From Oligoflexales bacterium (GTDB lineage Bacteria; Bdellovibrionota_B; Oligoflexia; Oligoflexales; RGVZ01): 64,000 nt of DNA. This document shows positions 13,689-17,871 of the stretch, piece by piece; the first letter of the stretch is position 1, and every line of letters begins with the position of its first letter. The DNA lies in the NCBI GenBank assembly GCA_947494335.1, contig CANLUT010000002.1, forward strand, positions 643,904 through 707,903, read 5' to 3'. The position numbers and the translations under genes were made by a program. The notes beneath the pieces were generated by a model that saw only the letters and a program-made list of their open reading frames with translations, made no database searches and was not told the origin of the DNA.

Positions 13689-14420
13689 ATGAGTATTTGG
13701 TGGAAATTATCCGTAGTAGCGGCTCTGTCAGGATTGGGTACGTCAGCTTTTGCTCAACAAGAAGTGATTGGTGACGATGGTTATAATAAAACCTATAACG
13801 ATGAATCGAAAAGCTTTGGTGAGAGAATGAAGGCTGCGCGCACACCTCCCAAAGTTGTCGTTGAAAATACGTACGGCGGCTTCACGCTGGGTGTCGTTGG
13901 TGATTTTGGACCTGTCTATGATGCGGAACCAAGCAGCAGCTCGGGGATGGGATATGGCTTTGGGGTTGAACCTGGCTATGTGATCCAAACGGAGATGATC
14001 AGCCGTATGGAGTTTGGGGCAGAATTTGCTTATCGCTCCTTTGACTGGAAACATACCAAAGGTGTATCAGCGGCGATGACTCCAACCAGTTTTACGCCTC
14101 GCTTTAGCATTGGTCACTCTATGGGTGACAACATGTTTGGTATGCTTCGGTTTGGTTTTGGCTTTGCTAATGCCCAGGCCACTTACAAATCAAACGGTAT
14201 AACCTCCAAGACAGATGAAAAAATGGGTCTTGTGCTGTCGGGTGGTTATGACGTGACTTATGGAGTCGGAATGGGTCAGTTTTTCGGTGGGCTTGGTGCG
14301 AGTCACTTCCGCTGGACGTTCTCTGAGCTAAAGACTGGCACTGTTACTGATAGTAACTACGATGGTCGTCTTGACTTAAATTACGTTAATCTTCGCGCGG
14401 GTATGCGACTTAAGTTCTAA
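13689..14420 (+). CDS. Outer-membrane beta-barrel protein
   Basis: A 243-residue exported protein. The signal peptide MSIWWKLSVVAALSGLGTSAFA is cleaved before QQE. The mature part has alternating aromatic and hydrophobic strands with Gly-rich turns (GGFTLGVVGDFGPVYD, YGFGVEPGYVIQTEM, MLRFGFGFANAQATY) and ends LNYVNLRAGMRLKF, with a terminal aromatic typical of porin-like barrels of about eight strands. GGAGGAATGA gives a good ribosome-binding site. The gene ends in a strong bidirectional terminator. Its exact function is unknown. Confidence 0.82.
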   Translation: MSIWWKLSVVAALSGLGTSAFAQQEVIGDDGYNKTYNDESKSFGERMKAARTPPKVVVENTYGGFTLGVVGDFGPVYDAEPSSSSGMGYGFGVEPGYVIQTEMISRMEFGAEFAYRSFDWKHTKGVSAAMTPTSFTPRFSIGHSMGDNMFGMLRFGFGFANAQATYKSNGITSKTDEKMGLVLSGGYDVTYGVGMGQFFGGLGASHFRWTFSELKTGTVTDSNYDGRLDLNYVNLRAGMRLKF

Positions 14421-14438: not shown

Positions 14439-14467
14439 AAAAAGGGCAGCCAATCGGCTGCCCTTTT
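14439..14467. terminator. Bidirectional intrinsic terminator between the barrel gene and top6A
   Basis: AAAAGGGCAGCC and GGCTGCCCTTTT form a 12-bp perfect stem around the loop AATC. The plus-strand copy ends in TTTT and the minus-strand copy in TTTTTGTTTGTTT. It can end both the outer-membrane protein transcript and the topoisomerase VI operon. Confidence 0.9.
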
Positions 14468-14470
14468 GAT

Positions 14471-15640
14471 TTATACGTAATTTCCTTTTTTGATCTTCTC
14501 GATAATGATCTTTTCCGCAATTTGTGGATCACGCGGAGCAACCGAATAGTAGGCCTGCTGTTCGCAACGACGCTTGTTTTTGTAAAGCCACTCAAGGATT
14601 TCAGCTAAACCTTTGTTACGCTTATCTCTAAAGAATGGGTCGTTTTGTAGGGCGTCTTTGGCCTTTTTCAAGGCTCGACCTTCCTGAGCGTCTTTCTCAT
14701 TCACAGAGTAATCATTGAGGTCATATTTCTTGATATCTTCCGGAAGAACGCCGAGAAACCTAACTTCTGGTGCTGAAAAGTCACTGTTTCGGATTAGTGA
14801 TGACGCAGAGCCCGCTTTCAGAGTGCGGTAAATATTTTGGAGCGTGTAGGCGTCGAGGTCTCCGAAGAAGTAAAGCGGAATTTTAAGCTGGTCTTGGATG
14901 CGTTTTACCCAGCCACGGACGGCGTTTGATGGAACTCCTTGTGAACCCACCACAATGCAGTTGTGGCGTTTAGTGAAACCATTGGCTACCAAGGTGTTCG
15001 CCGTACCTTCCGACTCAATGATGATGCCGAAATCAATTTTCTTTTTGGCTTTAAGAGTCAAATTCTGTGGGCGGTTTTTTGGTTGGAATGGAGACGTTCC
15101 AAGTTGGCTTAAATCAATGACGGCCTGTGCGCCATCAGACAGGGTCTCAGTTACGACCAGCTGCTGCGAGTATGTTTGGCCGCCGCGGTCGTTGGCAAAA
15201 CAGTTAAGTTCTTCGCGGTAGGCCTCAATCATCTCGCAGATAAAATCGATCACTTCATCGGACTCATCTTGATCAGCAAAATCTAAGGCCTTGAGCAGGG
15301 GGTTTTGCTTAATTTCACCTTTGCTGACGTAGTAAAGTTCGCGTTTGTTGGCGACGTTGCCTGTTTCCAGGTTGCGCAACAGGATTTCCAGCATGAAGAC
15401 GGAGCGAGACATCTTTTTCACGGAGCTGACGTTTAGCTCTGTGCTGACTTTCTTGTCTCCCGGGGTGAGAAAGCCTACGCGGTGATCGTAAAGAGAATTA
15501 TCAAGGCTACACTTTGTCGCCTTAAGCACTGGCCTTTTGGCCTTCTCAAGGTCAGTCAGCATGTGGTCACAAAGCGCTAAACACTGCTTCATGATATCAG
15601 TGTTAATGCGGCCTTTTCTTGGGGAGTGAACAGATGGCAT
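14471..15640 (-). CDS. top6A: DNA topoisomerase VI subunit A (Spo11-like)
   Basis: A 389-residue protein with the two-domain plan of Top6A/Spo11. The 5Y-CAP (winged-helix) domain contains the tyrosine motif KRELYYVS (100-106), with Y104 the predicted nucleophile that attaches to the 5' DNA end. The Toprim domain has the acidic residue E209 in IIIESEG, the GSQGVPSNAVRGW loop (232-244) matching the family GxPxxxxR pattern, and DLD (D261, D263) for magnesium. Motif LQNIYRTLKAGS (267-278) also matches archaeal Top6A. With Top6B it would form a heterotetramer that passes duplex DNA through a double-strand break using ATP. It starts 18 bases after the top6B stop, behind an AGAGGA site. All key residues are intact. 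Confidence 0.93.
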   Translation of the reverse strand: MPSVHSPRKGRINTDIMKQCLALCDHMLTDLEKAKRPVLKATKCSLDNSLYDHRVGFLTPGDKKVSTELNVSSVKKMSRSVFMLEILLRNLETGNVANKRELYYVSKGEIKQNPLLKALDFADQDESDEVIDFICEMIEAYREELNCFANDRGGQTYSQQLVVTETLSDGAQAVIDLSQLGTSPFQPKNRPQNLTLKAKKKIDFGIIIESEGTANTLVANGFTKRHNCIVVGSQGVPSNAVRGWVKRIQDQLKIPLYFFGDLDAYTLQNIYRTLKAGSASSLIRNSDFSAPEVRFLGVLPEDIKKYDLNDYSVNEKDAQEGRALKKAKDALQNDPFFRDKRNKGLAEILEWLYKNKRRCEQQAYYSVAPRDPQIAEKIIIEKIKKGNYV

Positions 15641-15658
15641 ATATGTCCTCTTTCTGAG

Positions 15659-17677
15659 TTATTTCTTGTTGGCGGGAGCTTTGGCGGTTGCCTTTTTTGC
15701 CGTCGTTTTGGGTTCAGGTTTTTTCTCAGCAGCCTTCTTCGCAGTCCCTTTTTTAGAGGCGTCTTTTTTGGTCGCCTTACTTTTGGTTTTTTCTGGGGCA
15801 AATACGGAAAGAATATCCTCGTCTGACTTCTTTTTCTTTTTGCTTTTTGGAGCGTCGTCCGAGTCGCCTGAAACCTCTCCAAAACTCTCTTCAGATGATG
15901 AATCCTCAGATGCTTCTGCTTCCATGGCTTCTAACTCCTCAGGAGTTGGAGCTCTGGATGCCTCAAGCGCAGAGTCCTCATCTCGGAAGGCTTTGAGGCG
16001 CTTTTTACGCGCCAAGTTTGCTTCGTCAAGAGCGGTTTCAGCCGAGGCAAGTTTCGTTTGGGCTTCATCTGTATCGCGGCCGAGGATTTTCTTTAATCCC
16101 TCGTATGCGGCTGTTTTTCGCTTGTCTGGGCTCTTCGTGATCCGAACTAATGTATCAACGAGGACTGGTCCAAACTTTTCTATGTGTTGAATTTTCTCTT
16201 CGAGATCGGCGGCCTTGGTCTCACGTGAAAGGTGGCGAGATAAGCGTTGGCCTGCTTGCATGAGAGCTCGGCGAATTTCTTCGACAAGCTCGTCGGAAGC
16301 ATCGATGGTTTCTTTGGAGGCGTTTTTGAATTTAATAAATGGCGACACGATGGAAACGGCCAAAATATATGGGCCTGTTGGCAGTGCGTCCTTCGGTTGT
16401 CTCAGTCCGTAGGAGCGCCAGTTCACAGTTGTAATCGCTTTTACGATCGCACAGGCTGCTTTATCAAATTGCAGCGGCACACGGTTTGCAAAGCGAAGGA
16501 CTTGTACGGGCTCATCGCCATCAATGCCTGCACCGTGAACCCGGGCAATGGCTACCTCCACCTGAATCGGCTTGAAGTCACAGATGGTTGGCTTTCTAGT
16601 CGCAACAGCAAAGAAGTCAATCTCACCAAGACGCTCAACAGAAAGTGACATCGCGTCTTCGCCGATGCTGACAACACTTTGCGTGCTTGGCGCCATAAGC
16701 TGAGTGGCTTGGACGGCGGCATAGACTGACTTTAAACTTTCGTCAGAAACAGATTCTACACCCTTATCAAGAAGGTTCGCAGGGAGGCTTTGAGCCTTCC
16801 ACATATCGGTGATGACTTTGTCACTCATCCGGGAAAAGCCGGTTTTGAGCCAAGTTTGAAGTTTTGTGCGACCAAAGAGTCGAGCGTGCGCCAAAAATTC
16901 CCCAAGTTTCATAGTGTGAGGATGCGGCTCGGTTGCGTCAGGGACGTGAGGTACGTCTTGTGTTACACGCTCATAAGTGGCCGAGCCAACTTCAGGCAAT
17001 GTATAGGTCAACGTCATGTGCGGGTTGACCAGGACGTTTCCGCGCAGGTAGCTAAGTAGACCGGCCTCGCCGTTTAGTTGAACGCGGCCTTCCATGATGA
17101 ACTCAACGGATGTTCCGTGGTTGCGATCCCAATCAATGGTTTGACGGTCGCGCACAATACCCTTGTTGTTTTTAAGATCGACTTCAATGGAGCAAGAGAT
17201 GGCTTTGCGCTGATCTTTGGTCTTTGTAATAACTCGTACAGGTGTGGCTGTCGTTTGAAGAGCCCAGGTTGTCGCAGCGGAAATACCGATACCCTGCTGA
17301 CCACGGCTACAGCGACCGCGTCCAAACTTGGAGCTTGCCAGATATTCGCCAAAGACTTTCGCGATGTCGTTTTCGGGGATGCCAGGACCGTTGTCATCAA
17401 TGACAATTTTCAGGCGGTCCGTGTTTTTCATCGTGCCCGCACCCATTTTCTCAATCACAATATTGATATTGGGTAAAATGCCGTGATCTTCGCAGGCATC
17501 AAGGCTGTTATCCATCGCCTCTTTGACGGTGGTTAAAACGGCTTTTGTCGGCGATGAAAAGCCCACTTGCTGCAGGTTTTTTGAAAAATATTCAGCAGTT
17601 GAGCTCGATGTAATCTTCTTGCTCGCCCGTGGTTTTGGTGCTTCTTCAGCGGCTGGTTTTGCTGACTTTTTAGTCAT
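15659..17677 (-). CDS. top6B: DNA topoisomerase VI subunit B (GHKL ATPase)
   Basis: A 672-residue ATPase subunit. GHKL motifs are intact: E53 and N57 in KEAMDNSLDA, DDNGPGI (94-100), RGQQGIGIS (125-133) and GTS (188-190). A helix-two-turn-helix region lies near 271-330, then a transducer domain with LRFANRVPLQFD (394-405), NWRSYG (419-424) and K455 in NASKETIDA, the likely switch lysine that senses ATP. After about residue 545 comes a 125-residue tail, first acidic and serine-rich, then Lys/Ala-rich (KKATAKAPANKK), unlike archaeal Top6B. I chose ATG 17677 because TGGAG lies 9 bases upstream; a longer frame starts at 17806. It precedes top6A in an operon of two. Confidence 0.93.
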   Translation of the reverse strand: MTKKSAKPAAEEAPKPRASKKITSSSTAEYFSKNLQQVGFSSPTKAVLTTVKEAMDNSLDACEDHGILPNINIVIEKMGAGTMKNTDRLKIVIDDNGPGIPENDIAKVFGEYLASSKFGRGRCSRGQQGIGISAATTWALQTTATPVRVITKTKDQRKAISCSIEVDLKNNKGIVRDRQTIDWDRNHGTSVEFIMEGRVQLNGEAGLLSYLRGNVLVNPHMTLTYTLPEVGSATYERVTQDVPHVPDATEPHPHTMKLGEFLAHARLFGRTKLQTWLKTGFSRMSDKVITDMWKAQSLPANLLDKGVESVSDESLKSVYAAVQATQLMAPSTQSVVSIGEDAMSLSVERLGEIDFFAVATRKPTICDFKPIQVEVAIARVHGAGIDGDEPVQVLRFANRVPLQFDKAACAIVKAITTVNWRSYGLRQPKDALPTGPYILAVSIVSPFIKFKNASKETIDASDELVEEIRRALMQAGQRLSRHLSRETKAADLEEKIQHIEKFGPVLVDTLVRITKSPDKRKTAAYEGLKKILGRDTDEAQTKLASAETALDEANLARKKRLKAFRDEDSALEASRAPTPEELEAMEAEASEDSSSEESFGEVSGDSDDAPKSKKKKKSDEDILSVFAPEKTKSKATKKDASKKGTAKKAAEKKPEPKTTAKKATAKAPANKK

Positions 17678-17702
17678 GCGGTAGCTCCAGGACATGAAAG
17701 TT

Positions 17703-17743
17703 AACTGGTCATTCAAAGCTTTAGGGCATTTGAACTGGTCATT
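17703..17743. promoter_or_regulatory. Direct repeats just upstream of top6B (candidate operator)
   Basis: AACTGGTCATT occurs at 17703-17713 and again at 17733-17743, exactly 30 bases apart (about three helical turns). The similarity extends to 15 bases with one mismatch (AACTGGTCATTCAAA and AACTGGTCATTGAAA). On the minus strand a weak promoter, TTGACG (17770-17765) with 17-base spacing to TTTCAA (17747-17742), would overlap the distal copy. The proximal copy would lie in the leader, 26 bases before the top6B ATG. This arrangement suggests a regulator site, but no regulator is identified. Confidence 0.4.
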
Positions 17744-17871
17744 GAAACAGGGATTTTCGGCCTTCGTCAACAGCCGATTCAAAATGGCAGGCCCTTTGGA
17801 TGGCAATTCGGTGCCACTGGCACTACTATTTAAGGGTATGAAATAAATGGAAAAATATTTTTGAGGTCCAG

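Follow-up and report, generated by a model that had tools for sequence, protein, structure and literature searches.

Topoisomerase VI (topo VI), a type IIB enzyme, has already been described in Bdellovibrio bacteriovorus (PMC11302465, PMC11318664). The survey of Allen and Maxwell (2024, PMC11302465) counts topo VI in 17 bacterial families, Pseudobdellovibrionaceae among them, calls the presence of the enzyme across three domains puzzling, derives the bacterial enzymes from archaeal ones by transfer, and terms the placement of B. bacteriovorus Top6B "anomalous." According to this survey, B. bacteriovorus has gyrase without topo IV; a review on Bdellovibrio, which names Bd2864 as topo VI, is at odds with it in that it also lists "Top IV (Bd0005)" (PMC11318664). 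The substitution of topo VI for a missing topo IV has likewise been argued before (PMC11302465). With regard to function, the M. mazei enzyme is described as a preferential decatenase (PMC8837201), and it complements an E. coli parE-ts mutant according to unpublished data cited in PMC11302465. In the literature searched, we found no mutant phenotype for Bd2864 or Bd2865.

Here, we analyze a topo VI locus within the window, that is, the whole stretch of 64,000 nucleotides of an Oligoflexales bacterium. The locus belongs to the known Bdellovibrionota-wide Top6 family and is not a new system. What is new is the distribution of the enzyme within a single order, a site at which it was apparently lost cleanly, the existence of Bdellovibrionota-related genomes that combine gyrase, topo IV, and topo VI, and the tail of Top6B. 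The genomes with all three type II enzymes correct the published restriction of this combination to Pseudomonadota and Terrabacteria (PMC11302465).

Structure and conservation of the top6BA locus

The subunits are encoded by separate, adjacent genes on the minus strand, both intact and spaced 18 bases apart. The features of the locus, in window positions, are as follows.

14440..14467, no strand assigned: intrinsic terminator, bidirectional, separating top6A from the convergent open reading frame 13689-14420 (12-pair stem with a T-run)
14471..15640, minus strand: top6A, encoding the 389-aa subunit A of topoisomerase VI (Pfam PF04406 and PF21180; alignment to 1d3y), with a winged-helix domain carrying the nucleophile Y104 and a Toprim domain carrying E209, D261, and D263
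15659..17677, minus strand: top6B, encoding the 672-aa subunit B of topoisomerase VI (above the cut-offs of TIGR01052 and NF003218; 2q2e_B, 2zbk_B), with a GHKL ATPase, an H2TH domain, and a transducer carrying the switch-lysine candidate K455
15662..16003, minus strand: tail of top6B, residues ~559-672, an acidic linker followed by a Lys/Ala/Pro-rich part, predicted to be disordered (pLDDT, composition)

The original prediction of a complete topo VI operon in a bacterial chromosome agrees with both reading frames, their strand, and the 18-base gap, and its description of the neighbors as ordinary genes also stands (mfd, HIT, NMO, a CinA-like gene, gpsA, and nuo). The strong terminator that it assigned to the operon is real, with its 12-pair stem, but sits between convergent genes and serves both. 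An in-frame TTG start would lengthen Top6B to 715 aa (window 17678-17806), with the added stretch overlapping the probable promoter; we take the ATG at 17677 to be the more likely start.

Top6A matches the Pfam families TP6A_N and TOP6A-Spo11_Toprim, and Top6B matches Topo-VIb_trans (PF09239) and HATPase (PF13589). Top6B exceeds the cut-offs of the NCBIfam topo VI-B equivalogs, while the best topo VI-A model scores slightly under its own cut-off with Top6A. For both proteins, the closest solved PDB chains are topo VI subunits only. In M. jannaschii Top6A (1d3y), the counterpart of Y104 is the second Tyr of the motif REAYYVSK; E209, D261, and D263 align to the Toprim acids of the same structure, and K455 aligns to K427 of S. 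shibatae Top6B (2zbk_B). These Top6A residues show no variation in 100 Top6A relatives, and neither K455 nor the GHKL residues E53, N57, D95, G97, G99, R125, G129, and G131 vary in 81 Top6B relatives; the catalytic positions that had been picked out in both subunits are thereby borne out. The AlphaFold model of Top6A (mean pLDDT, 71) finds its best fold match in 1d3y (E = 1.9e-17), and that of Top6B (mean pLDDT, 74) in M. mazei 9o0g_B (E = 1.9e-42).

Top6A is homologous to Spo11, and its model also matches the Spo11 fold (8urq_A). The pair could thus be viewed as a meiosis-like Spo11 break-maker that does not carry out strand passage, or else as a nonfunctional relic. We give this reading hardly any credence: the Top6A fold is nearer to 1d3y than to Spo11, Top6B is complete and includes the transducer, and the ATPase, switch-lysine, and cleavage residues are all invariant in the relatives. 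The Top6A/Top6B pair is almost surely functional.

Distribution of topo VI and topo IV

The genome containing the window (3.3 Mb, 97% complete) encodes one GyrA/ParC-type and one GyrB/ParE-type protein in adjacent genes, and the canonical GyrA box QKRGGKG identifies this pair as gyrase. A search for parC and parE (topo IV) in this 97%-complete genome returned only the single gyrA and gyrB. Two type IA topoisomerases are also present. The suggestion that topo VI works beside gyrase and topo IV is therefore right for gyrase and wrong for topo IV.

Across the 58 genomes of the window's phylum, Top6A occurs in 30 and Top6B in 33. Absence of Top6A from G034, G038, and G011 was rejected in favor of an assembly gap, since Top6B reaches the contig end in all three; a 34th Top6B row, from G025, was discarded as a low-complexity match to the tail. 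The window's order is represented by 43 genomes, of which 26 have Top6 without parC, 7 have parC without Top6, 7 have both, and 3 have neither, one of these last (G002) containing only gyrA fragment(s). A Fisher test of Top6 versus topo IV on genome counts yields a P value of 0.003, which ignores relatedness; the tree holds two to three pairs of independent events, too few for a formal test of mutual exclusion.

Six of the seven genomes with both enzymes belong to a single family, f11. In the three f11 genomes that carry both gene pairs on one contig (G027, G030, and G033; loci L158, L159, and L160), parE-parC is located 12 to 17 kb from top6B-top6A. Two other members of the order, G025 and G026 of family f10, apparently have gyrase but lack topo IV and topo VI alike; the G025 assembly consists of 7 contigs and is 92% complete. 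The sister order (family f13; 14 genomes, G044 to G057) has gyrase alone, the exception being a single ParE gene in G046, truncated where its contig ends. The GyrA box of f13 reads QNRAGKG or QHRAGKG (QNRGGMG in G046), versus Q[RK]RGG[KR]G (examples are L113 to L115, L121, and L129). A search for PF00808 as a link to bacterial histones gave one match in the 58 genomes and was uninformative.

A scan of genome_contigs returned 110 Top6 relatives, all of Bdellovibrionota type and partly from the same genomes as the phylum set. Among the best 80 of these 110, Top6A identity is 68 to 91%, in records titled Bdellovibrio, Pseudobdellovibrio, Bacteriovorax, and Oligoflexales, among others; by record title, the nearest relatives are Pseudobacteriovorax and Oligoflexales. 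These identities and the position in the tree place the locus in the Bdellovibrionota Top6 clade. Relatives titled Bdellovibrio and Pseudobdellovibrio fall in the same Top6A tree, within a common bacterial clade, so the locus does not have the novelty as a bacterial occurrence that the original prediction had attached to it. A scan of viral contigs gave a single contig with topo VI, IMGVR_UViG_3300028558_000016 (482 kb), which carries a Bdellovibrionota-like top6BA pair with 71% Top6A identity (L208/L209); although filed as viral, this contig is probably of bacterial origin or contains a prophage.

Evolutionary history of the locus

In families f1, f3, and f7, top6BA is flanked by gpsA/nuo on one side and by mfd on the other. 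Within f3, two genomes that have topo IV and lack Top6 (G003 and G004) show 111 bp between mfd and the next conserved gene, and G006, G007, and G009 carry top6BA exactly at the position of this gap. Because the site is common to three families, we favor clean loss of top6BA in G003 and G004 over gain elsewhere. The families of the gyrase tree reappear in the Top6A+B tree. This family-level agreement, together with a site next to mfd and gpsA that recurs in three or more families, upholds the earlier impression of an operon that is settled rather than freshly acquired.

Since the ParCE tree also groups f3 and f11, the simplest account is an ancestor with both topo IV and topo VI followed by reciprocal loss. 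This account is not proven, as support is 89 for f3 and 88 to 99 for the forks within it and independent events on the tree are few. A single clade for the Top6 rows of the window's phylum is not rejected (p-AU = 0.56). One tree hinted that f11 received its Top6 by transfer from other Bdellovibrionota; we set this candidate aside, as the hint is unsupported and the single phylum-wide clade is not rejected.

Another proposal would be that top6BA came by recent transfer from archaea, or that it represents a mobile-element topoisomerase akin to Topo VIII or to a nuclease of the Wadjet/MksG type. Such a proposal can draw on the mainly archaeal occurrence of topo VI and on the origin of the bacterial copies by transfer (PMC11302465). 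Yet Top6A identity is 68 to 91% across the phylum set versus 26% to Natrinema Top6A, three families share the chromosomal site, and the A and B subunits are separate and full-length; our search of plasmids for Top6 gave matches in haloarchaea only. We consider this proposal very improbable. The conserved site and the tree reject transfer as a recent event, while an ancient transfer is the accepted origin. In the reading that we favor, topo VI was already present early in the order and then passed on vertically.

The degree of constraint is as expected for core genes. Between families, mean identity is 0.723 for Top6A versus 0.686 for GyrA, with Top6A higher in 85% of pairs, and the values for Top6B and GyrB (0.62 and 0.64) are about equal.

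Proposed role of topo VI

We propose that these genes encode a vertically inherited A2B2 topo VI which most likely serves as the main decatenase and stands in for topo IV, because gyrase is the sole other type II enzyme in the genome. In such an enzyme, two Top6B subunits would bind ATP and shut like a gate, and two Top6A subunits would cut both strands of one duplex via Y104, with the Toprim acids holding the metal; a second duplex would then be passed through the cut one. In this way, topo VI would separate and unknot daughter chromosomes, a role that belongs to topo IV in most bacteria. It counts against this proposal that the two type IA topoisomerases could help in the task.

Topo IV and topo VI do not strictly exclude each other, since seven genomes have both, and f10 and the sister order f13 manage on gyrase alone; topo VI is thus not strictly required for chromosome separation. 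One may go further and suppose that gyrase alone separates the chromosomes here, too, with topo VI as an accessory that acts in DNA repair or that relaxes the positive supercoils of fast replication or compaction. The f10 and f13 genomes, with gyrase and without topo IV or topo VI, and the retention of topo IV beside topo VI in seven genomes speak for such a role. However, 7 of the 10 genomes of the order that lack Top6 kept topo IV, and G002, among the other three, has gyrA fragment(s) only. The loss site in f3 also lies in topo IV-bearing species, and Top6A is as constrained as GyrA. As for f13, its gyrases, with the GyrA box variant QNRAGKG, may behave unlike the gyrase considered here. An accessory role is therefore unlikely, and we favor topo VI as the main decatenase.

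This one order offers a natural experiment: its genomes carry topo VI alone, topo IV alone, the two together, or neither, and one site looks like a clean deletion. The substitution hypothesis thus becomes directly testable in a culturable relative.

The lysine-rich tail of Top6B

Past residue ~558, Top6B continues into a disordered tail of 114 aa, with pLDDT below 50 for residues 589 to 672. Its final 60 residues are 37% Lys and have a net charge of +15. Among the 81 Top6B relatives, tail length ranges from 2 to 162 aa, and the tail is Lys-rich in 26 (defined as at least 20% Lys over the last 60 residues in a tail of at least 60 aa); some of these tails are KKVAKKKVAKKK repeats. According to Allen and Maxwell, the immunoglobulin-like domain that M. 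mazei Top6B has at this end is missing from bacterial Top6B (PMC11302465). In the literature searched, that survey included, we found no mention of a lysine-rich Top6B tail, nor did we find a test of tail function on any Top6B.

Actinobacterial TopA also has a variable lysine-rich C-terminal tail, which may raise processivity (PMC7398561), but it is a type IA enzyme unrelated to Top6B. By analogy, the tail of Top6B may hold the enzyme on DNA. We tentatively extend this to a broader scenario, which we find conceivable though somewhat short of an even chance: topo VI and topo IV would be interchangeable as decatenases in the group, with an ancestor of the order that had both, loss of topo IV in most lineages, clean loss of topo VI from the conserved site in some, and one family that keeps both at a short chromosomal distance, and the Top6B tail would be a DNA tether that raises processivity.

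Comparison with known systems

The closest described system is the topo VI of B. bacteriovorus HD100 (Bd2864 and Bd2865), likewise a complete type IIB enzyme encoded in a bacterial chromosome, in a species reported to have gyrase without topo IV. It differs in belonging to another lineage of the Bdellovibrionota group, and the long Lys-rich Top6B tail is a feature of the protein studied here, HD100 having been compared by its published description. The archaeal enzymes of M. mazei (2q2e/9o0g), S. shibatae (2zbk), and M. jannaschii (1d3y) have the same domain order, catalytic residues, and predicted folds. The M. mazei Top6B carries an immunoglobulin-like C-terminal domain, whereas our protein has the disordered Lys-rich tail in its place. 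A haloarchaeal locus (L206) shares the B-then-A gene order, but the haloarchaeal proteins are only ~26% (A, as for Natrinema Top6A) and 28 to 35% (B) identical to those described here. In contrast to Topo VIII and plasmid-borne type IIB enzymes, which are characterized by fusion or a mobile location, the locus has two separate genes, and its place in the chromosome is conserved. Bacterial topo IV (ParC/ParE), whose genes are absent from this genome, is a type IIA enzyme with another cleavage architecture; what it is proposed to have in common with this topo VI is the decatenation of daughter chromosomes.
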